53,973 nt of DNA, taken from NCBI GenBank assembly GCA_949283935.1, contig CASDUJ010000023.1, positions 1 to 53,973 of the forward strand, in the 5' to 3' direction. The position numbers and the translations under genes are program-made. Numbering within the stretch: the stretch's first letter is position 1; every line of letters starts with the position of its first letter. The notes below the pieces were generated by a model. The model was given only the letters and a program-made list of their open reading frames with translations, ran no database searches and was not told the origin of the DNA. Positions 2,473-53,168 of this stretch are shown here, piece after piece. The DNA is from an uncultured bacterium (GTDB lineage Bacteria; Cyanobacteriota; Vampirovibrionia; Gastranaerophilales; JAILCC01).

Positions 2473-2509
2473 AATTTATATAAAAATGCAATAGATGGAG
2501 ATTTTTATA

Positions 2510-3067: not shown

Positions 3068-3133
3068 AATTGTAAATTAATTGCAACGCGCCGCGATTTT
3101 TGATATAGAATGACATTAGAAGGAGGTAGTCGT

Positions 3134-4141: not shown

Positions 4142-4146
4142 AATAC

Positions 4147-4566: not shown

Positions 4567-4631
4567 AAATATATTCTAATATTAAAATAATAAATGTAAA
4601 ACTTGATTATATAAATGTTTTAAGTGATTAA

Positions 4632-4656
4632 TACGACACCTAAAAAGGAGGTCGTA
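4632..4656 (+). promoter_or_regulatory. Hairpin that hides a ribosome binding site
   Basis: TACGAC (4632-4637) pairs with GTCGTA (4651-4656). CCT (4639-4641) pairs with AGG (4646-4648) across an AAAA loop, with a small internal bulge. The stem covers the AAGGAGG ribosome site and the A of the ATG at 4656, so folding would block translation of the following modification gene. Confidence 0.4.
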
Positions 4657-9312: not shown

Positions 9313-9395
9313 TTCGACCTCTCACAATATATACAATATAACAAAAATTCTGTTATAATTAACTTAATTGTTACAATTGTTTTTTGGAGATTATT

Positions 9396-9512
9396 ATGGG
9401 TTGTATCAAAAATTTAGTTGGACTTATTGTGATAATTCTTGCAGCTATTGGTTTTGTAGCCATCGGAGGAATTGATTTTGTTATGAATGGTTTGAACGGA
9501 ATTATTAAGTAA
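9396..9512 (+). CDS. Small single-span membrane peptide (38 residues)
   Basis: A short reading frame begins MGCIKNLVGLIVIILAAIGF and ends in -NGIIK. It is a single hydrophobic helix with a positively charged N-terminus and a Cys at position 3. GGAG (9386-9389) lies 6 bases before the ATG, and a perfect TATAAT (9354-9359) lies upstream with a poor -35. The stop codon is one base from the ATG of the U32 family gene, which has no strong ribosome site of its own, so the two are probably co-translated. No family is recognised. The good ribosome site, promoter box and coding-like composition argue that it is real. Confidence 0.6.
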   Translation: MGCIKNLVGLIVIILAAIGFVAIGGIDFVMNGLNGIIK

Positions 9513-9513
9513 A

Positions 9514-11265
9514 ATGAAAATTGAACTTCTTGCTCCTGCAAAAGATAAAGGATGTGCTATTTGTGCAATAAACTATGGAGCTGATGCTATTTACATTGGA
9601 GCAAATGCTTTTGGTGCAAGAAAAAATGCTTCTAATTCTTTAGAAGATATCAAAGAAATTATTGACTATGCTCACAAATTTTACGTGAAAGTTTACGTAA
9701 CAATAAACACCATTTTAGATGACAAAGAAATTTTAGAAGCACAAAAATTAATTTTTCAACTTTATGAAATAGGGATTGACGCAATTATTATTCAGGACAT
9801 GGGATTATTAGAACTCCCTTTACCTCCAATTGCGATAAATGCAAGTACTCAATGCCATAACAAAGATTTAAGCAAAATAAAATTTTTGGAAAAAACAGGA
9901 TTAAACCGAATAATATTAGCAAGAGAACTTTCCATAAAACAAATTGAAGAAATTTGTAAAAACACAAAAGTAGAAATTGAAACTTTTATTCATGGAGCTC
10001 TTTGTGTTTCATACAGTGGTCAATGTTATCTTAGTAGAAGCATAGGAAATCGTTCAGCAAACAGAGGAGATTGCGCACAACCTTGCAGAAAAAAATACTC
10101 TCTTTTAGATGCAAAAGGTAATTATTTAATAAAAGACAAATATCTTTTAAATCTTAAAGATTTTAATGCCTCAAAAGAAATTCCTGAATTAATAAAAGCA
10201 GGAGTAAATTCTTTTAAAATTGAAGGCAGATTAAAAGACAAAAACTACGTAAAAAATGTAGTAGGATTTTATCGCAAATTAATAGATAAATACGCCCAAA
10301 AAACATCTTCTGGCAAAATATTTTTTGATTTTACTCCTAATTTAAACAAAACTTTTAATAGAGGTTACACAAATTATTTTTTAAAAGAAAGAAATGAAAT
10401 TTTTAATTTTAATACGCCCAAAGCCATAGGAGAAAAAATAGGAAAAATAAAAAAACTTCACGGAAATTATTTTATATACGAAGGAGAAAAACTTTCTGTT
10501 CAAGATGGTTTATGTTTTTTAGACGAGAAAGGAATAAATGGTTTTTTAGTTAATAAAATTGAAGACAATAAAATTTACCCTAACAAAATTGATAATTTAA
10601 AAGAAAATGTAGTATTATACCGAAATATAGATTTTGAATTTAACAAAAAACTCAATAATTCAAAAACAGTAAGAAAAATAAAAGTTAATTTTGTTTTTGA
10701 TGACAAATATTTAACAGCAATAGACGAAGACAACAACAAAGTTTTTATAGAAACAAAAAACTATGAACCTGCTCAAAACTCACAAAAAGCAAAAACCAAT
10801 ATAATAACAGGTTTAGAAAAAACAGGTGAATCGGATTTTTATGTAGAAGATATAGAACTAAAATTTAGCAAAATACCATTCATCCCAATATCAAAAATAA
10901 ATAAACTACGCAGAAGAATTCTTGAATTACTAATGCAAGAACGCATTAGAAATTACAAAAGACCAAAAGCAAATGAAATCAAGAAAATTCCATATTACGA
11001 AAAAGAAGTAAACTACAAAGCAAACATCCACAATTCTTACGCCAAAAAATTTTACGAAAACAGAGGAGCAAAGATTACAGAATTTTCATACGAAACGAAC
11101 AGATTTGTCGAAGCTGAATTAATGAGAACAAAACATTGTTTAAAGTATGCCATTAACAAATGCCAAAGCAATGATACATTATATTTGGAAGATGAAACAG
11201 GAAAAAAATACAACCTAGAATTTGATTGTAAAAACTGTGAAATGATTATAAAAAGCCCAAAATAA
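9514..11265 (+). CDS. U32 family peptidase / 23S rRNA hydroxylation-type protein
   Basis: This 583-residue protein starts with the U32 TIM-barrel signature (ELLAPAKD, then YGADAIYIGANAFGAR). It carries the iron-sulfur cysteine cluster typical of the family in the segment GALCVSYSGQCYLSR followed by NRGDCAQPCRKKY. A long C-terminal extension ends in MRTKHCLKY and a further Cys pair, as in the RlhA and YhbU/PrtC groups. Family members are annotated as collagenase-like peptidases, but the best-studied bacterial ones hydroxylate RNA bases (RlhA on 23S rRNA, TrhP on tRNA). RNA modification is therefore the better guess for this one. It is likely co-translated with the 38-residue membrane peptide in front of it. 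Confidence 0.85.
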   Translation: MKIELLAPAKDKGCAICAINYGADAIYIGANAFGARKNASNSLEDIKEIIDYAHKFYVKVYVTINTILDDKEILEAQKLIFQLYEIGIDAIIIQDMGLLELPLPPIAINASTQCHNKDLSKIKFLEKTGLNRIILARELSIKQIEEICKNTKVEIETFIHGALCVSYSGQCYLSRSIGNRSANRGDCAQPCRKKYSLLDAKGNYLIKDKYLLNLKDFNASKEIPELIKAGVNSFKIEGRLKDKNYVKNVVGFYRKLIDKYAQKTSSGKIFFDFTPNLNKTFNRGYTNYFLKERNEIFNFNTPKAIGEKIGKIKKLHGNYFIYEGEKLSVQDGLCFLDEKGINGFLVNKIEDNKIYPNKIDNLKENVVLYRNIDFEFNKKLNNSKTVRKIKVNFVFDDKYLTAIDEDNNKVFIETKNYEPAQNSQKAKTNIITGLEKTGESDFYVEDIELKFSKIPFIPISKINKLRRRILELLMQERIRNYKRPKANEIKKIPYYEKEVNYKANIHNSYAKKFYENRGAKITEFSYETNRFVEAELMRTKHCLKYAINKCQSNDTLYLEDETGKKYNLEFDCKNCEMIIKSPK

Positions 11266-11289
11266 AAGTATTAACAAATGGTTACATAT

Positions 11290-11317
11290 TTGCTTTTTGA
11301 TACTGAAATTATATACT
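11290..11317 (+). promoter_or_regulatory. Promoter of secreted protein gene
   Basis: TTGCTT (11290-11295) and TATACT (11312-11317) are spaced by 16 bases. A GGGAG ribosome site follows at 11337-11341, just before the ATG at 11348. Confidence 0.4.
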
Positions 11318-11347
11318 GTTAGCTGAAAGTAATTTAGGGAGTAGAAA

Positions 11348-12487
11348 ATGAATTTAAAGAAAAATTTATACACATTAATAATTGCATCAGCAGCACTTTT
11401 TGCATATAACAATATAGATTCAGTAAAAGCGGAAACAGTTCCTGTAAAAATTAACAACGAAACACCAGCTTCAATATCAGCTGAAAAATCTACGGCAGAA
11501 AATCAAATTGAAGAAACAAAAGAAACTTCTCCTTTTGATAATAAAATTGAAACTATTTCAGAAGAAACAACTACCAAAACACAAATTAATATAGAAGACA
11601 TAGAGCCGGCAGTTTTAATGGAATTAAAACCTGAAGTTAAAGAAATTATACAAGAAAGAACTACAATAAAAGAAACTGTAACAGAAAGTGGAGAAACTGT
11701 AGAAATTCAAGAGAAAAGAATTGACAATGTAAAGGTAGAAGAGAACAAAGTTACTGACACAATAACAGAAGAAGTCAAAGTACAAGAAGTAAAAAAAGAA
11801 GAAGAACTTCCTGTTTTAGAAGAAATTGAGCTGCCAACATTAAACAAAAAGCCAATAAACAATGAACCTGTAAAAATAGAAGTTTCCTCGCAAAGAATTC
11901 CTGCAGGAACTGTCATTCCACTTAGACTAGAATCTTCAATTAATTCTATTGCCTCTGATATGGGAGATCAATTTAATGCTACATTAACTTCAGACATAAT
12001 GGTAGGAGACAATATAGTTTTACCGGCAGGAACAGTTGTTAGAGGAACTGTAGGAAAAATGCAAAAAGCAGGAATGTTTGTAAAAGAAGCTAAAATTCTT
12101 TTAGTATTTGACCATATAGTTACTCCCGTAGGGAAACAAATACCTGTTTTTGCATACATGACAGGTAGTCCCAAAATTAATTACGAAGGCTACATAACAG
12201 GAGGAACCTCTTATGGAAAAGCTTTTAAAGAAGATGCAAGCAAAAGTAAGGATATTATAGTAAATTCAACTACTTTTGGAGTAGACAAAGGTTTAGCATA
12301 TTTAGGAGGAGTTCCTGTTGTAATTACAGCTCCTTTGTGCGCAATTGGAGGCACAATAGGTGGCGGAGGTTATTTAATAGGAAAAAGTATATACAATATT
12401 TTCAACAAAGGGGGAGAAGTTTTACTTGAACCCGGAACATTAATGAATGTTACTTTATCAAAAGCAATGGATGTTCCTGTAAATTAG
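11348..12487 (+). CDS. Secreted/periplasmic protein with TrbI/VirB10-like C-terminal domain
   Basis: This 379-residue protein has a clear signal peptide of about 28 residues ending near DSVKAE. An acidic, Glu/Thr/Lys-rich low-complexity spacer of about 140 residues probably crosses the periplasm. The C-terminal 200 residues begin IPAGTVIPLRLES and contain the GDNIVLPAGTVVRG pattern, followed by Gly-rich hydrophobic stretches (IGGTIGGGGYLIG). The rhythm of an initial 'aGT-ip-l' strand, a 'lpaGt...G' strand and a final 'epGt' strand resembles the TrbI/VirB10 beta-barrel fold. No conjugation genes are nearby, so a role in cell-envelope assembly is more likely than DNA transfer. Its own promoter and ribosome site are visible. 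The fold match is from memory and should be treated as provisional. Confidence 0.7.
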   Translation: MNLKKNLYTLIIASAALFAYNNIDSVKAETVPVKINNETPASISAEKSTAENQIEETKETSPFDNKIETISEETTTKTQINIEDIEPAVLMELKPEVKEIIQERTTIKETVTESGETVEIQEKRIDNVKVEENKVTDTITEEVKVQEVKKEEELPVLEEIELPTLNKKPINNEPVKIEVSSQRIPAGTVIPLRLESSINSIASDMGDQFNATLTSDIMVGDNIVLPAGTVVRGTVGKMQKAGMFVKEAKILLVFDHIVTPVGKQIPVFAYMTGSPKINYEGYITGGTSYGKAFKEDASKSKDIIVNSTTFGVDKGLAYLGGVPVVITAPLCAIGGTIGGGGYLIGKSIYNIFNKGGEVLLEPGTLMNVTLSKAMDVPVN

Positions 12488-12541
12488 TAACTAATTCTCT
12501 TGATGATTTAATTAAAAAACAAATTAATATAAGATAAAAAG

Positions 12542-13336
12542 ATGAAAATTATAGTTTGCTTAAAACAAGTTCCAGACACTCAAGACATAAAATGGACCGA
12601 AAAGGGTACCATGATTAGAGAAGGGGTAGAAAGTATAATTAATCCATATGATGAATTTGCTTTGGAATATGCTTTGAAAATTAAAGATAAAATTCCTGAA
12701 ACAAAAATTATTGCTTTATCAATGGGACCTCAACAAGCAAAAGATTTGCTAAAAATTGCAATTGCAAAAGGAGCAGATGAAGGGATATTAATTTGTGACA
12801 AAAAATTTGCGGGCTCAGATACTTTTGCAACAAGTATGACTATTGCAAGTACAATAAAACAATACATCCCTGATTTTAATTTAATTATATGCGGACAATT
12901 TGCAATAGATGGAGATACAGCCCAAACTGCTCCTTCTTTAGCAGAACATTTAGGTATAGAACAAGTAACTTTTGTAAACAAATTAATTGATTCAGATCAA
13001 GAAAAAATAATAATAGCAAAAGAAACAGATGAAGGCTTTATTGAAATTGAAGCAAAATATCCAATAGTAATGTGTGTAATAAAAAATGAAGAAGAACCGA
13101 GAAATTATTCGATAAAAGGATATATTCGTTCATACAATATTCCAATAGAAATATTAAACAAAGAAAAAATAGAAATTGATGAAAATTTTATAGGATTTAA
13201 AGGTTCTCCAACTTATGTAGCCAAATCTTTTCCTCCAAAATTTGACAGGAAAGGTGAAATTTTAGAAGGAACAACAAAAGAAATTGCACAAAATTTACTG
13301 ACAATAATTGAGCAGAAAAAATTGGAGGGCAAATGA
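12542..13336 (+). CDS. etfB: Electron transfer flavoprotein, beta subunit
   Basis: EtfB (264 residues) forms the AMP- and FAD-binding heterodimer with EtfA that passes electrons from acyl-CoA or other flavin dehydrogenases to the quinone pool or to bifurcating enzymes. The N-terminus MKIIVCLKQVPDTQ is diagnostic, as are NPYDEFALEYAL and the segment LIICGQFAIDGDTAQT in the nucleotide-binding fold. The gene overlaps etfA by four bases (ATGA). No acyl-CoA dehydrogenase or butyryl-CoA pathway gene is adjacent, so the electron donor cannot be named from this window. Confidence 0.95.
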   Translation: MKIIVCLKQVPDTQDIKWTEKGTMIREGVESIINPYDEFALEYALKIKDKIPETKIIALSMGPQQAKDLLKIAIAKGADEGILICDKKFAGSDTFATSMTIASTIKQYIPDFNLIICGQFAIDGDTAQTAPSLAEHLGIEQVTFVNKLIDSDQEKIIIAKETDEGFIEIEAKYPIVMCVIKNEEEPRNYSIKGYIRSYNIPIEILNKEKIEIDENFIGFKGSPTYVAKSFPPKFDRKGEILEGTTKEIAQNLLTIIEQKKLEGK

Positions 13337-14308: not shown

Positions 14309-14914
14309 ATGCAAGGAAAATTTATAACTTTTGAAGGCGCAGATGGTTCAGGCAAAACCACACAAATTGAAAAGATAAAAAAATATTTAGAAGAAAAAGG
14401 ACACAAATGTCTTTTAACAAGAGAACCTGGGGGAAGTAAACTTGGAAATAAAATCAGAGAAATTTTGTTACATTATGATGGAGAAGTAGATTATTTGAGC
14501 GAATTACTTTTGTATATGGCAGATCGAGCTCAACACGTAAAAACCATTATACTCCCTGCACTAAAAGAAGGAATGATTGTTTTATGCGATCGTTACATTG
14601 ATTCAAGTGTAGCATATCAAGGTTATGCTAGAGGCTTAGATGTTGAACAAATTATGGAATTAAATAAAATAGCAACTTTTGGAATAGAACCTGACTTGAC
14701 AATAGTTTTTGATGTAGAAACTCAAACAGCCATAAAAAGGCTGGGAGAAACAAAGGATCGTCTTGAACAAGAAGGTATAGAATTTCATCAAAAATTAAGG
14801 TACGGATATTTAGAATTAGCAAAAAAATTTCCTCAACGAATTTCTGTTGTTAATTCAAATTTAACAATTGAAGAAGTTTTTAGTGAAGTAAAAAAAATAT
14901 TAAAAGATTTTTAA
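14309..14914 (+). CDS. tmk: Thymidylate kinase
   Basis: This 201-residue enzyme phosphorylates dTMP to dTDP for DNA synthesis. The P-loop FEGADGSGKTTQ lies at residues 7-18, the TREPGG segment contacts the nucleotide, and the DR(Y) catalytic motif is in CDRYIDSSVAYQGYARGLD. The lid ends in KDRLEQEG. It has a good ribosome site (GAGGA) and is the last gene of the etfB-etfA-tmk run. Its stop codon overlaps the stop of the convergent gene at 14911 by four bases, so the two transcripts share 3' ends. Confidence 0.96.
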   Translation: MQGKFITFEGADGSGKTTQIEKIKKYLEEKGHKCLLTREPGGSKLGNKIREILLHYDGEVDYLSELLLYMADRAQHVKTIILPALKEGMIVLCDRYIDSSVAYQGYARGLDVEQIMELNKIATFGIEPDLTIVFDVETQTAIKRLGETKDRLEQEGIEFHQKLRYGYLELAKKFPQRISVVNSNLTIEEVFSEVKKILKDF

Positions 14915-15375
14915 TATTTTTTGAGCTTTATTGCATTCATTTCTTCTTGATTTCTAATTTCATTGTCCACGTTTTTATGTATTTTTTGTATATAGTCTTG
15001 TCTTTCAGGAAAATCTTTTGTTAGGGTAAAAAGTTTTCTTCTCAAATTTCCTTCAATAAAAGCATTTAAAATTACTTCATCAAAAAATTTATTTTCGGCT
15101 TTTTTGATATTAGCAGCAACAGGTTCTCCTGGAGTAATATTAACCAGATAAACAGAAGCAGAATATTTTTGGGGAAATCTTATTGCAGCGATGTCATTTT
15201 TTTCTCCTTTACAAAAAAAATCAGAAACAGTAGTATTTTTAGAACCAGAATTTTTTATAATAGAACAAATCTCTTCAGCAACTTTTACTCCATGTTTTTC
15301 AGAAATTTTTTTGTACAAATCTCCAGAGATCTTTGCCATACCAAAGTTTTGAGTTGCAAGTGAATTTATTTTCAT
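14911..15375 (-). CDS. Small protein with MKIN...NFG N-terminal tag, unknown function
   Basis: This 154-residue protein starts MKINSLATQNFGMAKISGD and has no signal peptide or membrane span. The body is mixed alpha/beta with a basic C-terminus, and I recognise no domain. The N-terminal dozen residues resemble the starts of two other unrelated proteins in this window, the GH13 enzyme and the 75-residue Cys protein. It is divergent from the PxpA-like gene and convergent with tmk. Confidence 0.75.
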   Translation of the reverse strand: MKINSLATQNFGMAKISGDLYKKISEKHGVKVAEEICSIIKNSGSKNTTVSDFFCKGEKNDIAAIRFPQKYSASVYLVNITPGEPVAANIKKAENKFFDEVILNAFIEGNLRRKLFTLTKDFPERQDYIQKIHKNVDNEIRNQEEMNAIKLKKY

Positions 15376-21230: not shown

Positions 21231-21794
21231 TTATACCCTCAATAATTTTTCTTGTATTATTACTTGCGCCATATATTCAAGTACTTCATATTTGTAAAAA
21301 GCTTCTTTTATTGAAGAAGCAACAACTATAGCACCGTGATTTTGTAAAATTGCAGCATCATAATTTTGCAATATTTCTGCTGTAGCATTTGCTAATTCCA
21401 TAGATCCCGGAGAATAATAAGGAACCAAAGGAACTTTATTTTTGAATAAATATTGAAGTTCTACAATAGAATTATTTTCTATTGTTTTCGCATTAAGCGC
21501 AAAAGTTGACAAAAAAGGGGAATGCGTATGCAAAATAGCATTAACATCTTTTCTTCTTTTGTAAATTTCTATGTGCATAAATTTTTCTGTAGATGCTTTC
21601 CCTTTGTTCAAAGAATTTCCTTCAAAATCAATTTCTACAATATTGTCAGAATTTACATCATTTAAAGAAACTCCTGAAGGACTAATTGCTATATGAGCAA
21701 ATTTTCTTATGCTTGCATTACCGGAACATCCGGGAGCTAAACCTTTTTCATAAGCTTTTTGGCAATATTGACTAAGTTCTAAATATCCATTCAT
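21231..21794 (-). CDS. Class II aldolase/adducin family protein
   Basis: This 187-residue protein has the family pattern: GCSGNASIR near the N-terminus, ISPSGVSL, the metal-binding HTHS (ILHTHSPF), and LQNHGAIVV with the third His. Relatives include L-fuculose-phosphate aldolase and methylthioribulose-1-phosphate dehydratase, all zinc enzymes acting on sugar phosphates. The substrate cannot be read from the sequence. The start codon overlaps the fliA stop by one base (TAATG) and ispD follows directly. Methionine salvage genes, which would suggest MtnB, are absent from the window. Confidence 0.88.
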   Translation of the reverse strand: MNGYLELSQYCQKAYEKGLAPGCSGNASIRKFAHIAISPSGVSLNDVNSDNIVEIDFEGNSLNKGKASTEKFMHIEIYKRRKDVNAILHTHSPFLSTFALNAKTIENNSIVELQYLFKNKVPLVPYYSPGSMELANATAEILQNYDAAILQNHGAIVVASSIKEAFYKYEVLEYMAQVIIQEKLLRV

Positions 21795-22459
21795 TAATAA
21801 TAGCTTTCAACATCATGCTCGTGCAAATATGTTCTTACGGTATTCAAAGCAGCCTGAACTATTCTTGTAACTCTTGATGAAGACAAACCTACAACAGTTG
21901 CTATCTCTTTAACTTGCATATTTCTGTAAAAACGATATTCCACTATAGTTCTTTCTTTTTGAGGAAGTTTAGCTATAGCTTCTTTAATCATTCTACTAAG
22001 TTCAGTTAGTTCATATTGTTCATCAGGCAGTGCACCTGAATCTTTCAAAAAGTCAAAAGGCGAATCATTGTCTGAAGAATCTGCCGCAATTGAATCTATT
22101 GACAAAATTGTTTCATAAATTGCTTCTCTAACTTTATCTGGAGAGACATCTACTCCTGAAGCATCTCCTTCACTTTCCGAATCAGAATTTACCTTTTGTT
22201 TATATGAATACCATTTATATCTGTTTCGTAATTCATTTCTTATTGCCCACCTTACAGCAGTTGCCATGTAAGAAATATTATACTTTTTAAGTTGCTCTGC
22301 TGTTTTATTTTTTATCAAAGCTTGAATACCAATAATTCCTATGCTTATTAACTCTTCAAGATCCACCATATGCGAAGGAATTCGCCTATATTCAACTTTG
22401 GCAACTTTTTCTATAAGTTCTATGTAATTTTTTATGTCAATTTTTTCTTGCACTGTCAA
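21794..22459 (-). CDS. fliA: RNA polymerase sigma factor for flagellar operon (sigma-28)
   Basis: This 221-residue sigma factor of the FliA/WhiG class directs transcription of late flagellar genes. Region 2 is seen in DLEELISIGIIGI and TAVRWAIRNELRNR, and region 4 in LPQKERTIVEYRFYRNMQVKEIATVVGLSSSRVTRIVQAAL-like helices. An acidic, Ser/Asp-rich linker of about 50 residues separates the two. The start is TTG at 22459, with GAGGA (22468-22472) about 8 bases upstream. The gene follows flhB by 15 bases and overlaps the aldolase by one. A promoter with both sigma-28 elements intact lies at 53843-53870, so the factor has a visible target here. No flgM anti-sigma gene is in the window. Confidence 0.88.
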   Translation of the reverse strand: MTVQEKIDIKNYIELIEKVAKVEYRRIPSHMVDLEELISIGIIGIQALIKNKTAEQLKKYNISYMATAVRWAIRNELRNRYKWYSYKQKVNSDSESEGDASGVDVSPDKVREAIYETILSIDSIAADSSDNDSPFDFLKDSGALPDEQYELTELSRMIKEAIAKLPQKERTIVEYRFYRNMQVKEIATVVGLSSSRVTRIVQAALNTVRTYLHEHDVESYY

Positions 22460-22474
22460 AAAATTATTCCTCTA

Positions 22475-23551
22475 CTACTTTATTTTATCTATTTTTTTAT
22501 TTTTACGCAAATTGTATACAAATAATAATATTTCTGCAACAGCTTTATACAGTTCTGGAGGGATTTCTCGGTTAAGTTCAACTAATCTAAAAAGTGCTCT
22601 TGCTACCGGTGGATTTTCAATAACAGGTATGCCATGCTCTTTTGCTATTTCTATAATTTTTTTGGCAATAAGTTCCGTTCCTTTTGCAATTAATTTTGGT
22701 GCACTCATTTCTGCTTGCTCATATTTTAAAGCAACAGCTACATGAGTAGGATTCGTTACAACAAAATCTGCTGTTTGAACAGCATCCATCATACTTCTTT
22801 GTAGTACTTGTTGTCTTCTTTGTCTTAAAGCCGCTTTGACGTGAGGATCACCTTCAGAGTTTTTGTATTCATCTTTGATTTCTTTGTAAGACATTTTTTG
22901 ATCTTTCAAAAATTTCATTCTTACAACCATATAATCAGCAGCCGATATTGCCAAAAAAATGATACAAGCTTTCGTTACAAAATCTACAACCAATTTACCA
23001 AATTCAAACAAAACAGCAAATTTATTATCAACTGCACTTAAGCCAAGAATTACAGGAAAATGAGCTTTGTATACGCTCCAACCTACAAAACCTAAAATTG
23101 CTACTTTGAAAATATTTTTTACTAATTCAAATGCAGTTTTAATTGAAAATAAATTTTTAAAATATTTTGTGGGATTTAATTTATCAAATTTAGGCTCAAT
23201 AGTTTTTGTAGTAAAAATAGGACCTATTTGAATAAAATCTCCCATTATTCCCATCAACATAGCCATAAAAAGTATAGGAGCTAAAATTAAAAAAACTGCA
23301 ATTATTGAAATAGTCAAAATATAGGTAATTCCCACATTTTCTATAGTTGCATTCGGAATTTGTTCGTAAAGAAGAACAAATAATTTAGAAATTTGTTCCC
23401 AAATAAAAGGAGAAAGATAATAAACTAGCAAAAACATAACCAGCATAGCTATTGCCATAGAAAAATCTTTGCTTTTTATAACTTGTCCTTCTTTTTTTAC
23501 CCGAGCAAGCTTTTGAGGCGTTGCCTCAAATTGTTTATCTTCATCAGCCAT
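22475..23551 (-). CDS. flhB: Flagellar export apparatus protein FlhB
   Basis: FlhB (358 residues) is the substrate-specificity switch of the flagellar type III export gate in the inner membrane. The N-terminus KQFEATPQKLARVKKEGQV is typical. Four membrane spans lie between about residues 28 and 210, followed by a cytoplasmic domain with the autocleavage motif N-P-T-H (TNPTHVAVALKYE, near residue 268). Self-cleavage at Asn-Pro shifts export from rod and hook proteins to filament proteins. It leads the flhB-fliA-aldolase-ispD operon behind a clear promoter. Confidence 0.97.
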   Translation of the reverse strand: MADEDKQFEATPQKLARVKKEGQVIKSKDFSMAIAMLVMFLLVYYLSPFIWEQISKLFVLLYEQIPNATIENVGITYILTISIIAVFLILAPILFMAMLMGIMGDFIQIGPIFTTKTIEPKFDKLNPTKYFKNLFSIKTAFELVKNIFKVAILGFVGWSVYKAHFPVILGLSAVDNKFAVLFEFGKLVVDFVTKACIIFLAISAADYMVVRMKFLKDQKMSYKEIKDEYKNSEGDPHVKAALRQRRQQVLQRSMMDAVQTADFVVTNPTHVAVALKYEQAEMSAPKLIAKGTELIAKKIIEIAKEHGIPVIENPPVARALFRLVELNREIPPELYKAVAEILLFVYNLRKNKKIDKIK

Positions 23552-25551: not shown

Positions 25552-27285
25552 TTAACATCCGAATTGTTTGTAAACTTCTTTGGCTTCTTTTTCTATGTTA
25601 GGAGTATTTATTTCAAAAACATGAAACCTTGCAGGACCCAAATTCACATTTAATACGCCCTCTGCGACCGAAAATCCGCTTTTTTCTCCATAAGGCATTG
25701 TTAAATCTTTCAATACTTGATTTGCTTTCAAGCCAGGTATTTTAATTTCGCCAACAACATTACCATTTACATCCCTGTTCGCTACTATTAATAAAGTTTT
25801 TCCGTTTTTATGGCGAATATATGATATTATTCTATCACGTGCATCACCTGTTTCTCTTAAAGGAATAAAAGAACCCTTAGTAATAACTTCTTTATATTTT
25901 TCCCTTAATTTAGACATACTAGTCATAAAAGTACCAATTTCAGGATGTTTACCTCCAGGTTTTCTTGACAAATTAAAGATATCTATATGTTCATTATTAG
26001 GTATAGCGTAAGTAAAATCATCCGTAAAACTTTTATCTGCAATTTTACCTGCATAAGAATAGTTATATGTGTCTCCACTTTCAAAACCTGTAACATAATA
26101 AGGATTAGTCATTGGAAGAGTATTTCCTAAACCTGTTGTTAAATTACAATAATCTACACCACCAGATGACATAGGGCTTTTGTCATCGTGAGTAGCAAAA
26201 GATGCAATCAAAGATTTACCTGCAGGAAGTCTGTGAGACATATCTAGATTTTCTATAACATAATCAAATAATTCGCCAGCTTTAAACCAAGATGGGAAAA
26301 TATGATATTGTCCATAATATGCATCAAAACCAACAGCTAAAAGATCTTCTGGTCTATCATGTGGCATATTCAAAATAGGAGATGCATCTTCATATGTGTA
26401 TGATTCTGCTAAAAATGCGAATTCAGGATCTTTACTTCTTGCATAAGAAATTATTTCATCCCAAAATTCAACAGGTTTAGCTCTGGCAACATCTGCTCTT
26501 ATTCCATCTACTTTACATTCAAGCATTAAATCTACAAATTTTTTATGATAATCTATTAATTTTTGATTTAAAATTTTGTTGTCTTTGTCTGAATAAGGCG
26601 CAAACATTCTAATATCTTCCCAACCTTGTGGAACTTCAGGAAGATTTCTTTCATCTACTGCCATTAAATCAGGTCTTGCATTATATAAATCAACTGATGC
26701 ACAACTTGGAAGATCTATCATTACACTTATACCTCTCTTATGGCATTCATCGACAAAATATTTAAAATCTTCTTTTGTTCCTAACATTTTATCAAATGAA
26801 AGATAATCTTCTGGAGCATAAACAGAACCAGCTGTTCCTTTAGCCGCAATTTTACCTATAGGAGTTATGGGAAGTACGTGAAATGTATTAATTCCAAGTC
26901 TTTTTATTTCATCTAATCTTTCCACTGCATTTCTGAATGTACCTATTTCTTCGTTTTCATCAATTAATTCGTTACCATTTTTATCTTTTGCATTAAATGT
27001 TCTCATTATCATGGCATATAAAGAAACTTCATTATTTAAAAATTTAGTACGTAAATTATTTTTCCATTCAACATTTTGTTTGTTTGCATCTTTAATATTT
27101 TCAATAGCTTCGGGCTTTGTTCTATTTATTAAAATTTGTGCATAATTTTTAATAAAATCATTACTCGAAACAACATTACTAGCTTTTTGAGAATTTACAG
27201 GCATTTTGTTTGTTTTGTCTTCTGAAATTTTCCCAACATTTAATTGCATATTACTATTTCCAAAAGAAAGAAAATTAATCTTCAT
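25552..27285 (-). CDS. GH13 alpha-amylase family enzyme with MKIN tag
   Basis: This 577-residue GH13 enzyme has the catalytic set in order: IDLPSCASVD (region I, which lacks the usual Asn-His), GIRADVAR with the nucleophile Asp near 265, FLAESYT with the acid/base Glu near 294, and ATHDDKSP with the stabilising Asp near 367. The TIM-barrel start is seen in SLYAMIMRTFN and RLDEIKRLGINTFHVLPITP. A small C-terminal beta domain ends the protein. There is no classical signal peptide. Instead it begins MKINFLSFGNSN with a variable linker of about 60 residues. Substrate is unclear (alpha-glucan hydrolase or transferase). It is coupled by TAATG to the 871-residue membrane protein, and that gene in turn to another, so all three are one operon. 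Confidence 0.88.
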   Translation of the reverse strand: MKINFLSFGNSNMQLNVGKISEDKTNKMPVNSQKASNVVSSNDFIKNYAQILINRTKPEAIENIKDANKQNVEWKNNLRTKFLNNEVSLYAMIMRTFNAKDKNGNELIDENEEIGTFRNAVERLDEIKRLGINTFHVLPITPIGKIAAKGTAGSVYAPEDYLSFDKMLGTKEDFKYFVDECHKRGISVMIDLPSCASVDLYNARPDLMAVDERNLPEVPQGWEDIRMFAPYSDKDNKILNQKLIDYHKKFVDLMLECKVDGIRADVARAKPVEFWDEIISYARSKDPEFAFLAESYTYEDASPILNMPHDRPEDLLAVGFDAYYGQYHIFPSWFKAGELFDYVIENLDMSHRLPAGKSLIASFATHDDKSPMSSGGVDYCNLTTGLGNTLPMTNPYYVTGFESGDTYNYSYAGKIADKSFTDDFTYAIPNNEHIDIFNLSRKPGGKHPEIGTFMTSMSKLREKYKEVITKGSFIPLRETGDARDRIISYIRHKNGKTLLIVANRDVNGNVVGEIKIPGLKANQVLKDLTMPYGEKSGFSVAEGVLNVNLGPARFHVFEINTPNIEKEAKEVYKQFGC

Positions 27286-29900
27286 TAAGCTTTCCTCCTT
27301 TCTCTATATATATCAGGATTAAATTCATTTCTTTTTCCTATCATTGCTATAGAAATTGCAGTGACTCCACACAAAGCTGCAAAAGCTATTCCAACTTTTT
27401 TGAACCAACCTTGATATGTAAAGATTTTCTTTGCACTATCTTTCATAAATGAACTAAAAGTCTTACCCTCAATACTAGCAACTCTTCCAACTTTTGATTT
27501 GGAAATAGTAAATTCTCCTAATTCATCAATGTTATTAGTTCCGAAGAAATGTAAAAGATGTTTAAATCTAAATCTTCCGTTGTCTAAATAACCTTTACCT
27601 ATTTCCTTAGAACCTTTTAATGCTGCATAAATAGAACTTGTATCTCCTAGTTTAATATTTTCTACATCCTGAGCTGTTAATTTCAAAATACCTCTAAGTT
27701 CATCTAATTTTTGATTATTATTTTTTGCTAGTTCTACTATTTTATCTGCTAGTCCATCTTTGTTAGAGAAAAATAGTTCAAAGTATTCATCAATATAACT
27801 TTCAAATTTTGTTCCTTTTAATGCATTTTTAACTTCATTTCCGGATGGAATAGGAAACTTAGTATTTACATCATCAGAAAGAGCAGGAAGCATAACTCGC
27901 ATAATCTGCGTATTTACATTTATTTTTTTCGCCAAACTTTCCGGAAGCATCTCACTTATTTCAGGAGAAAGCTTACCTAACAAAATATCTACGTATTTAT
28001 AATAATCATCTGTATTTTTAATAACATCTTTGTAATTATCCAGTTTGTTTATAAATGTTTCCGCATTTTCTGAATTAAAAATAATTTTTTTCAACGTTTC
28101 GTAATCAATATTCTGATTATCTTTGGCAGCATTTAATATACTTAAAGCTTTTATTGGAGCAAATAATGTATTGTTGGTACTCATATATTTCGCCAAAATT
28201 TCTTTTCTGCGGATTCCAAGCAACATATTTAATTTTTCACTAATTTCTGCTAATTCGCCAGTTTTGTCATATGCATTTAACATACTTTGCAAAGTATCAA
28301 CATATGACAATGCAAAATCAAGAGCTCTTTCATTTTTTGTGCTTAATTTTGTGGCAATACCTGCCAAATTTTTAATGGTACTCTTTAATCGATCTGGGTT
28401 ATTTACTATACCATCCATAACTTCTCCCAAAATTTTGTTGCTTTGATCAAGAGAAGTACAATTTGCAAGAGCTTTTATAGTTTTTCTGTCCAATTTCAAA
28501 GCTTTTGCAATATCATTTGATGCTTTTTCCCAAATATAAGCATTTGTAGAACTATCTCCGTGTAAAGTATATCGAAAATATTTATCCAAATCCCCAACTA
28601 CTTTTAGTTTATATGTATCAATCATATTAGCTAAGTCTACAAGAATTGCTTTTGTTTTGTCTGTAGAATTTATTTGAACAACTTTTTTTGTTTGTAAAAA
28701 TTCTTGCATATCATCCAAAATTTTGTCCATTTTTCGCGGATTTTTTATCCACCGGTTTGCCTTTATTAAATTATTTAATGAACCAGTTACATAACTATTT
28801 ACTTCTGCAGTAGAATTCAAAGCAATTTCAGTTTTTCCACGCAGAGTTGCAAATTTTTTAGCTTTTTCTGCAAATTTTTCCAAAATTTCAGCAGAAGGTT
28901 CTTGCCCCAAAACCATTTTTGCCAAATCTTTATTAATTTTTTCATCAAGTACAATTTTAAAATCATTTGAATTTGAATTTTCCAAAATATTGTCTATTGT
29001 TTCAGCCAAAAGTGCTCTTAAATTTACATCGTCTGTTTTTTTCATAAATAATTCTTTCAACTCATTTTGAGTTGTTGCTGAGATATTTGGGGTAACTTTT
29101 TTATTAATAATATCAACTAAACTTTGATCATGAACAAGATCATTCATATTTGCAAGCATTTTATTTCTTAAATTAGAAGCATCGAGTTCTTGTTTTCTTT
29201 CTAATATAGGAGTATAAATTACCTTACCTATTTTGTCTGCTGCTAATGATGCTATAAGTGGTGTAGCAAATCCAGCTGTAATAAGAGCAAGCGTATTACC
29301 TTGAATAGCTACTTGACGAGCTTTATTTTCAATAGCTTGTCTTCTATTACGAATATTTCTTGGAACACCTAATTTGTCTCCCATTTTATGAATATCTTTG
29401 TCAGATATTAAATCCCAGCACAAGAATTGAGGATCTTGGAAGAAATTTTTTCTTCTTCCTGCACTACTTTCATACTCTAACCCAAGATCAACTCCTTTTA
29501 GAGCTTTAATAGGAAGATTAATAGCAAGTTTGGGCCACAAAGACATTGCGCCAAACCAACAAGCCAATCCTATGAATTCCATCCCTCTTTTGAAAGGAGA
29601 ACCACTACTAGCTGCCAAAACACCTGCAATACCTAAACTGCCAAGTTTCACAGCTACATCATTAATTCGACCTACAGAATAATCGTTACCTTTCCCTTGA
29701 ATACCATTAGCAAAATATTTTAAAGATTCAATATCGGCTTGAACGGCTCTGCGCAAACTAAACGGATTACTTTTTATTAAATGTCCTTTGGGAGAATAGG
29801 CTTTTACATTTGTTCTCAAAGAATTTTGCAAATAATTTGGAGAAGCATTTTTATTACGTTCTTGCATTATGTTTATGTAAGATTGAATCATAGAAGACAT
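27285..29900 (-). CDS. Large membrane-anchored helical protein, novel family, paralogue of next gene
   Basis: This 871-residue protein has hydrophobic segments at about residues 85-125 and 205-230 and a last span near 840-858 (FAALCGVTAISIAMIG). Between them lies a long, Asn/Lys/Leu-rich, all-helical region of about 600 residues. The block LPIKALKGVDLGLEY (129-143) followed by a WDLI motif (162-165) and a KLGV motif matches the neighbouring gene in order and spacing. Such an architecture, anchored at both ends with a long helical body, suggests a scaffold or spacer in the cell envelope. No known domain is recognised. It is translationally coupled on both sides (TAATG at 27285 and at 29900). 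Confidence 0.8.
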   Translation of the reverse strand: MSSMIQSYINIMQERNKNASPNYLQNSLRTNVKAYSPKGHLIKSNPFSLRRAVQADIESLKYFANGIQGKGNDYSVGRINDVAVKLGSLGIAGVLAASSGSPFKRGMEFIGLACWFGAMSLWPKLAINLPIKALKGVDLGLEYESSAGRRKNFFQDPQFLCWDLISDKDIHKMGDKLGVPRNIRNRRQAIENKARQVAIQGNTLALITAGFATPLIASLAADKIGKVIYTPILERKQELDASNLRNKMLANMNDLVHDQSLVDIINKKVTPNISATTQNELKELFMKKTDDVNLRALLAETIDNILENSNSNDFKIVLDEKINKDLAKMVLGQEPSAEILEKFAEKAKKFATLRGKTEIALNSTAEVNSYVTGSLNNLIKANRWIKNPRKMDKILDDMQEFLQTKKVVQINSTDKTKAILVDLANMIDTYKLKVVGDLDKYFRYTLHGDSSTNAYIWEKASNDIAKALKLDRKTIKALANCTSLDQSNKILGEVMDGIVNNPDRLKSTIKNLAGIATKLSTKNERALDFALSYVDTLQSMLNAYDKTGELAEISEKLNMLLGIRRKEILAKYMSTNNTLFAPIKALSILNAAKDNQNIDYETLKKIIFNSENAETFINKLDNYKDVIKNTDDYYKYVDILLGKLSPEISEMLPESLAKKINVNTQIMRVMLPALSDDVNTKFPIPSGNEVKNALKGTKFESYIDEYFELFFSNKDGLADKIVELAKNNNQKLDELRGILKLTAQDVENIKLGDTSSIYAALKGSKEIGKGYLDNGRFRFKHLLHFFGTNNIDELGEFTISKSKVGRVASIEGKTFSSFMKDSAKKIFTYQGWFKKVGIAFAALCGVTAISIAMIGKRNEFNPDIYRERRKA

Positions 29901-30982
29901 TATTGTTTGCCTCCTACAACACTGTTATTTTTTTCTTTTAGGGAAGTTTTTTTCAATATCATAGCATTTGCCAAAAGAGTCATTCCTACAGCAGCAATAA
30001 TTGCTCCCCTACCCATAATTTTGGAAGCAACTGAACCACCTTGCCATAATTCTTTGAAAGAATTAACAAATGGTTTAGCTATATTTTCTTTAATACCTAT
30101 TCCTAATTTAGCAAATCTATGTTCTGTTGAAGGCTTAAACATATTCACAGTATCTTTGAACAAACTTCTTACATTAATATCAGCAAAACTTTTTTGATAA
30201 GCAAGTCCTAACGCTACAGTAACAAATGGAACAGAAAGCATGTACTTCCAAGAATTTGCCATAATAATAAGTTTTTTAATTTTCCCTTTAAGTTTAGAAT
30301 CAGAATCTTTTTGTGGTTTAGTAACCCCAAATTTTTTGGCTAATTTATCAAAGGTTTCATTTATTTTTTTGTTTTCGTCATAATTATAAAGCAAATCCCA
30401 TCTGGTAAATTCAACACTTTCGAAAACTTTTTGAGTACCTTGTTTTTTGTTATTTGGTAAATTTAAAGGATTACCTTCACGCAAAGCAGTAATTTTTCTA
30501 TATGGCATATTCAAATCAATACCCCTAAACCATTTTACAGGAGCATCTATTGCCATATTTGCAGCTTCTCTACCTACATAATACATCAAAACGCCAGAAA
30601 GAATTTTCTTAAACAAATCATGATTAGCTTTTTTAGCAGAAGGACTAAAATTATTTCTTCCAGCAAGACAAACTGCAGCCAAGCCCAAACCACCTAAATA
30701 ATAAGGGATTTTAGATACTTTAAGATATTCAAAAAAATTAAAATCCGGATCCCCTTTCATTCCTCTATAAACATACCCAGGAGTATTCATTATATTTTCT
30801 ATATTAATTTTAGTTTTTGTAAGCAAATCAGTTTTTCTCAACTTATCTTTTTCTTTTTGTTTAAGAACAAAAAACTCAGGACGACGTTTCATTCCTCCAC
30901 AACGACGTTCTATAGAATCTCTTCTTGCCTCAAAACTATTATTTTTATTTACAATTGCATCAGTTGCTACAACAGATACCAT
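29900..30982 (-). CDS. Membrane protein, paralogue of the 871-residue neighbour
   Basis: This 360-residue protein shares a core with the following 871-residue protein. APVKWFRGIDLNMPY corresponds to LPIKALKGVDLGLEY, and RWDLL to CWDLI, followed by K-K-FGV and a hydrophobic span. Both proteins end in a membrane segment, here GRGAIIAAVGMTLLANAMIL. Hydrophobic stretches lie near 92-112 and 125-145. An in-frame TTG at 31003 is possible, but GAGGTAGG directly precedes the ATG at 30982, so I choose that. It begins the three-gene operon and is divergent from smc. No known family is recognised. Confidence 0.78.
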   Translation of the reverse strand: MVSVVATDAIVNKNNSFEARRDSIERRCGGMKRRPEFFVLKQKEKDKLRKTDLLTKTKINIENIMNTPGYVYRGMKGDPDFNFFEYLKVSKIPYYLGGLGLAAVCLAGRNNFSPSAKKANHDLFKKILSGVLMYYVGREAANMAIDAPVKWFRGIDLNMPYRKITALREGNPLNLPNNKKQGTQKVFESVEFTRWDLLYNYDENKKINETFDKLAKKFGVTKPQKDSDSKLKGKIKKLIIMANSWKYMLSVPFVTVALGLAYQKSFADINVRSLFKDTVNMFKPSTEHRFAKLGIGIKENIAKPFVNSFKELWQGGSVASKIMGRGAIIAAVGMTLLANAMILKKTSLKEKNNSVVGGKQ

Positions 30983-31108
30983 GCCTACCTCTAATAACGA
31001 CAAATATAAGAAATAACCTAATTATTATAAATTGCTATTACAAGAAATCATCTTAATAATATTTTACAAAAAATATAAAAAAATAAAAAAGTTACGTTCT
31101 TAATCTTT

Positions 31109-38305: not shown

Positions 38306-38749
38306 TTGAAAAAATTTAAGTTTTCTTTGCAAAATCTACTTGATTTGCGAGCCAAACAATTAGAAGAAAAACAAATTGAATTTGGCAAGCTTCAGTTTGT
38401 TATGAAAACTTTAGAGACAAAACTGAACGAACTAGAAAGGGAACTTAAAACATCAAAAGAAAATTTTGAAGAATTAATATCTTCAGGCAAAAAGATTTCT
38501 GTAGATTTTGTAAATAGTAACCAACGTTACACAATTCAAAAAGAAAAAGATATTACTAAGCAAAATGAAACAATAGAAGAACACAAAATTAAACTTGAAG
38601 AAAAGCAGCAAGAAATGATTGAAGCGCTAAAAGCCAAAACTATGTTAGAGAAACTAAAAGAGAAACAATACAAGATTTTTCTCAAAACTATAGAAGAAAT
38701 AGAAAGAAAAGAATTAGACGAAATAGGATTGGTGAAATACACAAGGTAG
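38306..38749 (+). CDS. fliJ: Flagellar FliJ protein (export chaperone escort)
   Basis: This 147-residue coiled-coil protein begins MKKFKFSLQNLLDLRAKQLE, the usual FliJ opening, and is helical throughout. FliJ sits in the centre of the FliI ATPase ring, promotes ATP hydrolysis and recycles export chaperones. The start codon is TTG at 38306, with GAGG (38298-38301) four bases upstream, a rather tight spacing. A perfect TATAAT lies at 38262-38267, which could drive the operon, though no clear -35 is seen. fliK follows after five bases. Confidence 0.85.
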   Translation: MKKFKFSLQNLLDLRAKQLEEKQIEFGKLQFVMKTLETKLNELERELKTSKENFEELISSGKKISVDFVNSNQRYTIQKEKDITKQNETIEEHKIKLEEKQQEMIEALKAKTMLEKLKEKQYKIFLKTIEEIERKELDEIGLVKYTR

Positions 38750-38754
38750 GAAAA

Positions 38755-40071
38755 ATGCTAGACTTAAAAATAAATATTGCTATTGATACAGAAAAAATGA
38801 ACAATCATATAACTCAAAAAACTTTCAACCAAGAACAAAATTCTTTTTTGAAAGTGTTCGAAGATGTGAATAAAAGTTTTGAAGCAACAAAAGAAGCAAT
38901 TTCTGAAGAAAAACAAGATAATAATAAATCAGCTCAAAAAGTAAAAGAACAACCAGAAGAAAACAAAGAAAAAGAAGATACATCAAAAGAAGAATCACCA
39001 GAAACAGAATCAAACGAAAAAAGTAATGAAACAATTACATTGGAACAAATTTTATTAAATTACAAAAACTCAATAGGAGAAAAACCTTTCCAAGAAACAA
39101 CCCAAACTACTCAAAACTCTCTTGAATTAAGAGAAACAAGCGAAAAACTTTTACACCAAAGAGAACAAACTCTTGAAATGACAGCAAAATTAATAAATGA
39201 ATTAAGGGCATCCCAATCACAAATTGCAACGCAAAATCCTATAAAAACACACAGCTATTCGGAAAAAGATTTAACAGCAAAAATTGATGCTCAAAACTCA
39301 AAAAATGTATTGGTAAACAGCGATACTATTTTAAATTTACAAAATTTAGCAAACACAAAAACAAATGAAACTAATTCATTAGCAGATATACTTTCAGAGC
39401 TTGATATAGAAGTTACTTCAGTAAAAACAAACACAAACATTCAACAAGAATCTAAAGGGTTTGATTTTAACAGTTCTACATTTAGTAATTTGAACAGTCA
39501 TATTACTAAATTAAATCTTAATAAAACTGCAGATTTCTCAAAAGTTATCAATCAAAAACTTACCCAAGAACAACAAATTTTAAACCAAATAAAAGATGGA
39601 GGAATAAATCAATTAGGGAAAGGCACCTCTAGTATTAACATCGTTTTACGACCGGAAAGTTTAGGAAGAATTAACATAAACATAATTTCAAACAATGGTA
39701 TACTAAGTGCACAATTTACAGCCCAAAGCCAACAAGCAGCTGATACTTTAAACAAAAATATTGATACACTTCGCCAAAATTTAATAGACCAAGGATTAAA
39801 AGTATCTGATGTAAACATAAAAGTTCAAGAAAGTGCCCAAAGCGAAACATTCTCCGACACAAGAAATTTTGACGAAGATAAACTAGGTAATTTTAGAGAA
39901 AATCACTCGAACAAAAATTCATTCAACGCTGAAAAAGGCAACAACAATAGTAGCTCAAAGCAAACATATATTGATAACGAAGAAGAAAATAAACAAGAAG
40001 AAAACTTAGTAGCTACTAATCAAAAAAGCAAAGATTTAGGAATATACAATAATATGGGGAGAAAAATATGA
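38755..40071 (+). CDS. fliK: Flagellar hook-length control protein FliK
   Basis: FliK (438 residues) measures hook length and triggers the FlhB specificity switch. The N-terminal 280 residues are low-complexity (Glu, Lys, Asn, Gln, Thr), as in other FliK rulers. The conserved C-terminal domain starts near residue 285: SSINIVLRPESLGRININII, LSAQFTAQSQQAADTL and LRQNLIDQGLKVSDVNI. It lies between fliJ and flgD and overlaps flgD by four bases (ATGA). Its partner flhB is encoded elsewhere in the window, on the other strand. Confidence 0.92.
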   Translation: MLDLKINIAIDTEKMNNHITQKTFNQEQNSFLKVFEDVNKSFEATKEAISEEKQDNNKSAQKVKEQPEENKEKEDTSKEESPETESNEKSNETITLEQILLNYKNSIGEKPFQETTQTTQNSLELRETSEKLLHQREQTLEMTAKLINELRASQSQIATQNPIKTHSYSEKDLTAKIDAQNSKNVLVNSDTILNLQNLANTKTNETNSLADILSELDIEVTSVKTNTNIQQESKGFDFNSSTFSNLNSHITKLNLNKTADFSKVINQKLTQEQQILNQIKDGGINQLGKGTSSINIVLRPESLGRININIISNNGILSAQFTAQSQQAADTLNKNIDTLRQNLIDQGLKVSDVNIKVQESAQSETFSDTRNFDEDKLGNFRENHSNKNSFNAEKGNNNSSSKQTYIDNEEENKQEENLVATNQKSKDLGIYNNMGRKI

Positions 40072-40673
40072 GCTACGCAGACGTAACAAGCTCTATTAAC
40101 ACAATGAAGAGCCAAACAAACGCAACAAATTATGAAAAAAACAAAGCAAACACTGACAACGAAATAAATCAAGATATGTTTTTGCAATTAATGATTACCC
40201 AACTTCAAAATCAAGATCCTCTTGAACCAATGGACAACACAGAATTTTTATCACAACAAGCAATGTTTACTCAAGTAAATACTCTCCAAGAAATGAATCA
40301 AAATTTAGCCACATACGGAGATGCTATTTTGTCTTTAAATGCTTCAATGCTAAATTCTAATACATTAAATCAAGCAATGAATCTTGTAGGCAAAGAAGTT
40401 ACAGCAATAAATCCTGACAACAAAGACGAAACAATTTCAGGAATAGTAGACTCAGTGAAAATAACAGACAACGGTCTAACATTTACTATAAACGGACAAG
40501 AAATTAGCTCCGAATACATAACAGGAGTAAACAATATAACAAACGAAACTACAGATCCAGACGCAGAACTAAAAGCAAATGCAAAAGACTTTCTTAGTGA
40601 TATTTTGCAAAATCCTAAACTGAAATCTGCCGCAGATAATCTTATTAATAATTTAGCTGGAAGTTTACTATAA
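40068..40673 (+). CDS. flgD: Flagellar hook capping protein FlgD
   Basis: FlgD (201 residues) forms the cap under which hook subunits polymerise. The N-terminal signature is DMFLQLMITQLQNQDPLEPM followed by DNTEFLSQQAMFTQVNTLQEM. The middle domain has NLVGKEVTAINPDNK and a beta-rich segment GIVDSVKITDNGLTFTING typical of the hook cap. Length is normal for the short form. It overlaps fliK and is followed by flgE after 26 bases with a good GGGGAG ribosome site. Confidence 0.94.
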   Translation: MSYADVTSSINTMKSQTNATNYEKNKANTDNEINQDMFLQLMITQLQNQDPLEPMDNTEFLSQQAMFTQVNTLQEMNQNLATYGDAILSLNASMLNSNTLNQAMNLVGKEVTAINPDNKDETISGIVDSVKITDNGLTFTINGQEISSEYITGVNNITNETTDPDAELKANAKDFLSDILQNPKLKSAADNLINNLAGSLL

Positions 40674-40699
40674 TTAATAAAAGACAAGGGGAGAAATTT

Positions 40700-42088
40700 A
40701 TGTCACAATCATTATTTACATCTATTACAGGTATGACAGCATCTCAATCCAAAATTGATGTTGTAGCAAATAATATTGCCAACATGAACACAACTGCATT
40801 TAAATCTTCGAATTTAACTTTCTCAGATTTATACTCCAAAACACTATCAGCTGGCTCCAGTCCTACAACAGGAGTTGGAGGTACAAACCCAATGCAAGTA
40901 GGGCTAGGAGTAGGTCTAGCAGGTATTACGACTGATTTTACAGGAGGAAGTATTCAATCAACAGGGAATAGTAATGATTTAAATATTCAAGGAAACGGCT
41001 GGTTCACAATTCTAAACACAGACGGAAGTATGGGACTTACAAGAGATGGTAGTTTCAAACTTGACGAAAACGGTAATTTGGTTACCCAAGCAGGTTTAAA
41101 GGTTTTGGGAACTAATTCAGCTTATTCTGCTACAGGAAGCACCACAAGTATTTTTGTTCCAAATAAACTAAATCTTGTAACATCAGGAAAAGATTTAACT
41201 GCAGGTGCGGCAGGAGTTTTAACAAATTTAAATAATGCTAGTATTACTCCGGGAAGTTTTTCTTTTGATGTATATAGTGACGCAGGAACATTAATTTCGA
41301 CCGTTAATGTTGACGCAAATACAGCAACGAGTTTACAAGATATTGCAACAGCTATTAACACAGCTATAGGAGCAGACCCAAATTTAACAAGCGGAGGTAA
41401 TTCTATAGTTACAGCGAAAGTTAATTCCGATGGAACTTTTACAATTGAAACTCAAAATGTAGGAGGATTGGGAAATGTAGGAGAAATTGATTTCAGTACA
41501 ACAGGAGACACGAGTAATTTCTTGTATGAATCAGATTTAGCAACTTCTACATTTGAAAATGGTAAATACACAAGCAAAATTTTGGCATACCAAGCAGACA
41601 TAGGACCTGCAACAAATAATAACAGCACTGTTTCTAAAGCTTCCTATGCAGTTACTTCAAATGGAGCAATAGAAGTTACTTACTCTAACGGAGATACAAT
41701 AACTGTTGAAGAAAAAAATGGAAACATGGTTCTCAAATACATAACTTCCGACGGCAAAACCATAAGTTCTACAGATATAAATGTAAGTGGAGATGTAATA
41801 TCTGCTGCTAATTTACAATTACAATTAGCTTCTGTTTTAAATGAACAAGGTTTAATGTCTCAAGGTGGAAATGTGTACACAACAGGTCCAAACAGCGGAA
41901 CTTTGACTTTTTCAATAGGTAATGCAAACGGTTACGGGCAAATAGGTTCTGGCGGATTAGAATCATCTAATGTTAATTTAGCTATAGAATTTGCAAATAT
42001 GATTGTTGCTCAACGCGCTATTGATGCAAATAGCAGAGTATTTACAAGTACAAGTGAAGTTTTACAACGTCTTGTAAGTTTACAATAA
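40700..42088 (+). CDS. flgE: Flagellar hook protein FlgE
   Basis: FlgE (462 residues) is the hook subunit. The N-terminal rod/hook signature is SLFTSITGMTASQSKIDVVANNIANMNTTAFK, shown here only in part as ASQSKIDVVANNIANMNTTA. The LNIQGNGWFTI strand and the C-terminal VNLAIEFANMIVAQRAIDAN helix are also typical. The central domain is Gly/Thr/Asn-rich and less conserved, as expected for the exposed hook surface. It is the last gene of the fliJ-fliK-flgD-flgE operon and is followed by a long structured element at 42181-42273. Confidence 0.95.
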   Translation: MSQSLFTSITGMTASQSKIDVVANNIANMNTTAFKSSNLTFSDLYSKTLSAGSSPTTGVGGTNPMQVGLGVGLAGITTDFTGGSIQSTGNSNDLNIQGNGWFTILNTDGSMGLTRDGSFKLDENGNLVTQAGLKVLGTNSAYSATGSTTSIFVPNKLNLVTSGKDLTAGAAGVLTNLNNASITPGSFSFDVYSDAGTLISTVNVDANTATSLQDIATAINTAIGADPNLTSGGNSIVTAKVNSDGTFTIETQNVGGLGNVGEIDFSTTGDTSNFLYESDLATSTFENGKYTSKILAYQADIGPATNNNSTVSKASYAVTSNGAIEVTYSNGDTITVEEKNGNMVLKYITSDGKTISSTDINVSGDVISAANLQLQLASVLNEQGLMSQGGNVYTTGPNSGTLTFSIGNANGYGQIGSGGLESSNVNLAIEFANMIVAQRAIDANSRVFTSTSEVLQRLVSLQ

Positions 42089-53128: not shown

Positions 53129-53168
53129 AAAACACTCCAATACTAACCTTAACTCACAAACCATAAAA

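Follow-up and report, generated by a model that had tools for sequence, protein, structure and literature searches.

Two predicted membrane proteins of one undescribed family encoded with a GH13-type enzyme in Gastranaerophilales

Organization of the locus

ORF calling in the window, i.e. the whole stretch of 53,973 nucleotides of DNA that was analysed, placed three genes head-to-tail on the minus strand in the order M1, M2 and GH13a. M1 (P0001; 29900..30982, minus strand), the first gene of the trio, encodes a short membrane protein of 360 aa with orthologs in 53 of 60 related genomes. M2 (P0002; 27285..29900, minus strand) encodes a long membrane protein of 871 aa, and GH13a (P0003; 25552..27285, minus strand) a protein of 577 aa, in which a variable N-terminal tail is followed by a catalytic barrel matching Pfam PF00128. 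An exact TAATG overlap could be read in the sequence at the M1/M2 junction (29900) as well as at the M2/GH13a junction (27285), so that the joins described in the first-pass annotation are indeed there. Strong Shine-Dalgarno sequences are situated just upstream of both overlaps, AGGAGG at 29910-29915 for M2 and AAGGAGG at 27294-27300 for GH13a, while the ATG of M1 at 30982 has its own upstream AGAGG (30988-30992).

Some other regions of the window were assigned by inspection. Flagellar genes are found at 21794-23551 and 38306-42088 (FlhB-like, FliA-like sigma factor and FliJ/FliK/FlgD/FlgE-like), which indicates that the host organism is probably motile. A DNA-modification cluster at 2495-6187 includes a cytosine methyltransferase (3110-4141), a Vsr-like endonuclease (4147-4566) and a piece of an Eco57I-like methylase (4754-6187). 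An autotransporter-like protein of 1923 aa (47393-53164, minus strand) combines a long repetitive passenger with a barrel-like C-terminal end. Several proteins of these genomes share a short start, 'MKIN...FG' or '..FKG/FSA', followed by a variable tail; in the window it occurs at 25552-27285 and 14911-15375, and in related loci at the N-termini of M1 and of a second GH13 protein, GH13b, described below.

The M1 and M2 proteins

BLASTP aligned the single sequences of M1 and M2 over approximately 189 residues (E=6e-7), and hhalign aligned their family profiles over about 200 residues (96.7%, E=4e-10; columns 43-277 against 42-246). The motif pairs from which a core shared in the same order had been proposed (APVKWFRGIDL/LPIKALKGVDL, WDLL/WDLI and K-FGV/KLGV) fall inside these alignments. 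At the level of sequence, M1 and M2 could thus be confirmed as distant paralogs of one undescribed family. The homologous core domain comprises residues 43-277 in M1 (30152..30856, minus strand) and about residues 49-246 in M2 (29163..29756, minus strand), where it contains the conserved GRKK.f.QDPQ..PWDL region and, in the AF2 model, helices 73-98, 102-135 and 186-250.

Both proteins end in a membrane segment, as the first reading had it. Family hydropathy peaks at residue 335 of 360 in M1 and 847 of 871 in M2, marking a clear terminal hydrophobic helix in each. The C-terminal transmembrane helix of M1 is predicted at residues 325-345 (29948..30010, minus strand; family-mean hydropathy 1.86 at residue 335, AF2 helix 318-345) and that of M2 at residues 834-852 (27345..27401, minus strand; hydropathy 2.32 for the single sequence and 1.69 for the family mean). 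The three core helices are moderately hydrophobic (hydropathy 1.0-1.5), so only the C-terminal helix is taken as a secure transmembrane segment. M2 has the same core and C-terminal helix as M1, and adds before the latter a large, poorly conserved helical region which varies between lineages, the M2 orthologs ranging from about 635 to 1163 aa. This layout bears out the first-pass description of M1 and M2 as one scaffold in two versions, short and long. M1 is usually 340-400 aa long; one M1 homolog lies in a far longer ORF of 631 aa close to a contig end (L079:1763-3658, genome G008).

AF2 models, built from 50 orthologs for each protein, were of moderate confidence (pLDDT 77.7 for M1 and 74.1 for M2) and had a common layout of two helices, a small beta hairpin, a long helix and the C-terminal helix, with the hairpin adjoining the conserved ES.EF.RWDL / QDPQ..PWDL region. 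A Foldseek search of both models against the PDB retrieved no similar fold (best E 0.54 and 0.11, query-normalised TM-scores below 0.2). Searches of Pfam, NCBIfam, PHROGs, PADLOC and PDB sequences, performed with single sequences and, in Pfam, also with every member of the alignments, returned isolated weak matches of single members and no family, and no carbohydrate-binding module was recognised in these libraries. Profile, sequence and fold searches alike placed neither protein in a characterised family, in line with the earlier remark that no named family has this core, and we rate the putative scaffold family as itself new.

The GH13a enzyme

The assignment of the third gene to the GH13 enzymes was upheld by a match to PF00128 (E=2.4e-10; 40.7 bits against a gathering cut-off of 22), by amylase relatives in the PDB (E=5e-22) and by an invariant catalytic triad. 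The nearest PDB entries by sequence, 4gkl and 3dhu, are both named alpha-amylase. No NCBIfam equivalog was found for GH13a, the MalA, TreS and cyclomaltodextrinase models scoring far below their cut-offs. The predicted catalytic nucleophile Asp265 (DGIRADVAR; 26491..26493), acid/base Glu294 (LAES; 26404..26406) and transition-state stabiliser Asp367 (THDD; 26185..26187), all on the minus strand, are invariant in 25 orthologs. The canonical DxxxNH of region I is absent: D191 is invariant and is followed by L-P-S-C, with PSC in place of N-H. Since the triad is intact while region I lacks N-H, GH13a is an atypical member of the GH13 superfamily. Its orthologs are 50-77% identical.

No signal peptide was recognised in GH13a, whereas a paralog with 35-42% identity, encoded elsewhere in genomes of family f2, does begin with one. 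In genome G015 this secreted paralog (L084:5550-7082) has GIRASV for GIRADV and LAQA for LAES, and with these catalytic residues lost it is probably a pseudoenzyme.

An N-terminal motif common to M2 and GH13a, [NS]L[IL]xxY[LIV], was suggestive: 63 of 120 GH13 tails passed at 5%, versus 8-19 in shuffles. It was set aside as evidence for docking because the rows are related, the GH13 of the window itself obtains a poor score (p=0.28) and the fused protein described below retains a similar stretch.

Distribution and gene order

Among the 60 related genomes, M2 was found in 54 and M1 in 53, and the genomes with a GH13a ortholog were essentially the same ones. In about 53 of the 60, belonging to several families, the trio is kept in order and strand with gaps of near zero (few bases), while in the fetched loci its flanking genes change from family to family. 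The gene order is hence a property of a wide group of genomes and not of the one in the window, and an arrangement conserved in more than 50 genomes exceeds a chance resemblance. A scan of genome contigs with the GH13a profile identified 344 encoding stretches; the same type of scan with M2 alone gave no match. The best 80 of these 344 loci were mostly named Candidatus Gastranaerophilales, Melainabacteria or uncultured bacterium; 73 of the 80 have all three genes in order, and the remaining 7 are truncated by a contig end.

In the phylum, M2 was detected in 173 of 386 genomes, all from the order of the window except G362, which belongs to the same class. Within the order it is absent from the genomes of family f3 and from some of f4 and f5; in the class, eight f8 genomes and one f10 genome have neither the trio nor GH13b. 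The trio is a near-universal feature of the order Gastranaerophilales, carried with few exceptions. Searches of viral contigs with M2 and of plasmids with M1 retrieved no relatives, and thus no mobile-element origin was seen.

Fusion of M2 and GH13a in a related genome

Genome G362 (family f9) is a one-contig assembly from the same class, outside the order. Its locus L205 encodes M1 at 8684-9823 and then a single ORF of 1030 aa at 9820-12912, which matches M2 at 129 bits as well as GH13a at 439 bits; PF00128 covers residues 598-691 of this ORF. The M2 part of this fused protein ends in a hydrophobic helix near residue 502, and is followed by SKTSRRRKEG and then by the GH13 domain. By the positive-inside rule, a transmembrane helix followed by RRRK predicts that the GH13 domain is cytoplasmic, and this predicted location agrees with the signal-less GH13a. 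In comparative genomics a gene fusion is classically read as a hint that the two partners act next to each other; in this case a single genome shows it.

A second GH13 enzyme and a sugar symporter

A giant protein of 1100-1450 aa (about 1300), GH13b, also contains a GH13 barrel (PF00128, E down to 5e-25), with an invariant set D774/E821/H921-D922. GH13b adjoins the trio in several families. It does so in G362 too, where the neighbour of the fused gene was identified as a member of this family (L205:4345-8412; hhalign E=2e-42); other loci are L042-L046, L049, L051, L053 and L208. In the genome of the window it is encoded away from the trio, at G000:C4:7541-11386 (L216). GH13b was present in 52 of the 54 trio-bearing relatives versus none of the 6 trio-less ones (Fisher p=6e-7, phylogeny ignored). 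Genomes with and without the trio occur within single genera, namely g6 (G021 without; G006 and G031 with) and g13 (G016 without; G027 and G029 with), which implies several separate losses or gains. Exceptions are G044 and the draft genome G025, with the trio and no GH13b, and G379, in which GH13b is present and the trio was not found.

A GPH/sucrose/SLC45-type MFS symporter (G000:C4:5268-6668 in the genome of the window) is a neighbour of GH13b in family f1, to which the window belongs, and in G362, with 38% identity between the two. It adjoins GH13b in these two families only; homologs occur in most relatives, including some trio-less ones. As these homologs separate trio-bearing from trio-less genomes unclearly, the symporter is treated as supporting context only.

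Proposed function

We propose, with a probability of roughly one half, that the products of the trio make up a GH13 enzyme assembly tethered to the inner membrane on its cytoplasmic side, which would take part in alpha-glucan or alpha-glucoside processing. The proposal builds on the homology of M1 and M2, the order-wide conservation of gene order, the M2-GH13a fusion, the co-occurrence of GH13b and the invariant catalytic residues; the physical complex, its topology, catalytic activity and substrate are what we infer. M1 and M2 would form a hetero-oligomeric platform via their shared core and C-terminal transmembrane helices. GH13a, signal-less and with a full triad, would dock on M2 near the C-terminal transmembrane helix, the point at which it is covalently fused in one lineage. 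Together with GH13b, the assembly could act on intracellular alpha-glucans or alpha-glucosides, and the sugars would plausibly be imported by the sucrose/SLC45-type importer.

The coupling of two paralogs of an undescribed family to a GH13 enzyme, as noticed in the first-pass annotation, stands; the envelope or storage-granule role attached to it obtained no specific support. For a storage granule, M1 and M2 would tether a granule of glycogen or another alpha-glucan to the membrane while GH13a and GH13b remodel the chains. The presence of two GH13 enzymes in the module, and of GlgA above cut-off in most of the order members tested, that of the window included, are consistent with such a function. 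However, genomes lacking the trio have GlgA equally, and the trio-bearing G009, G014 and G362 have none above cut-off; a role strictly tied to glycogen granules is therefore not favoured. Phosphorylase-family matches likewise do not split trio-bearing from trio-less genomes, and no carbohydrate-binding module was recognised in M1 or M2. Granule anchoring is considered unlikely.

Still less likely is an envelope glycan system, in which a lipid-linked or exported glucan is made or trimmed, with M1 and M2 as a flippase or export platform. The dedicated membrane partners could suit it, and in family f2 the trio comes after KpsF-, KdsC- and UppP-like genes (by inspection). These neighbours are confined to f2 and absent in other families, and an envelope role is therefore not favoured; moreover, the module has no conserved glycosyltransferase or exporter, GH13a lacks a signal peptide and the fusion predicts a cytoplasmic side.

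The symporter that neighbours GH13b in f1 and G362 could also point to a transporter-accessory complex, in which M1/M2-GH13a would assist a sugar importer from the cytoplasmic side and cleave the incoming sugar. In most lineages, though, the symporter is not adjacent to the trio, and the match in distribution is inexact, making this explanation distinctly improbable. A plain operon of lineage-specific genes, co-occurring by shared descent and with no physical coupling, would agree with every carrier being a relative within one class and with a fusion seen once, but is very improbable given that the order is kept while the flanks reshuffle and that GH13b is co-absent in several separate lineages, even inside genera.

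The membrane-tethered assembly proposed above can be extended further, in a doubtful and tentative way: M1 and M2 might represent membrane scaffolds of a new class, by which alpha-glucan metabolism is organised at the inner membrane in a membrane metabolon or a membrane-attached glucan body, and this trait might be ancestral to Gastranaerophilales and to one or more related lineages in the class. The order consists of common, rarely cultured gut bacteria that are related to Cyanobacteria and are predicted sugar fermenters. If the assembly exists, such a unit, in which two membrane proteins are tied to enzymes of the amylase type, would be central to their sugar uptake, storage or processing. 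With one fused protein and three small genes, the trio offers a testable entry point to a family that has no fold match.

Comparison with known systems

Literature text searches found no description of the trio locus. Starch and glycogen are among the substrates predicted for Melainabacteria in published genome papers, where alpha-amylase is named only in a general way (PMC3787301, PMC4040986).

GH13a resembles other members of the GH13 superfamily in its PF00128 barrel, in D265/E294/D367 and, like many of them, in a DxNxN...E loop of the Ca type following beta1; it differs in the PSC of region I, the long variable N-terminal tail, the dedicated membrane partners and the missing signal peptide. 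With bacterial glycogen (glg) operons the trio shares alpha-glucan-type enzymes. In contrast to these, its locus carries no glgA, glgB, glgC or glgP, its distribution is independent of GlgA, with phosphorylase equally non-discriminating, and it includes two membrane proteins of an undescribed family. Among the neighbouring genes that were read, no shell protein of a bacterial microcompartment or encapsulin cargo system stood out. The neighbour of GH13b in the genome of the window belongs to the family of GPH/sucrose symporters and SLC45 (SUC1, 8bb6; SLC45A4, 9giu), but it is encoded outside the trio, and its adjacency to the trio is not conserved in most lineages.

The 4F2hc/rBAT heavy subunits of SLC7 transporters are another case in which a membrane protein tethers a GH13 fold, a GH13-like domain there serving as the membrane partner of a transporter (PMC8537225). 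In 4F2hc/rBAT the ectodomain sits on one N-terminal transmembrane helix, whereas GH13a is a separate, signal-less and predicted cytoplasmic protein with an intact triad, whose partners are helical membrane proteins of an undescribed family. Nor does the fused homolog have the 4F2hc/rBAT arrangement of an extracellular GH13 after one N-terminal transmembrane helix, as its GH13 domain is C-terminal. A membrane-tethered GH13 is thus an already known idea from 4F2hc/rBAT; here the partners are of an undescribed family, and their genes form with that of the enzyme an order-wide unit.
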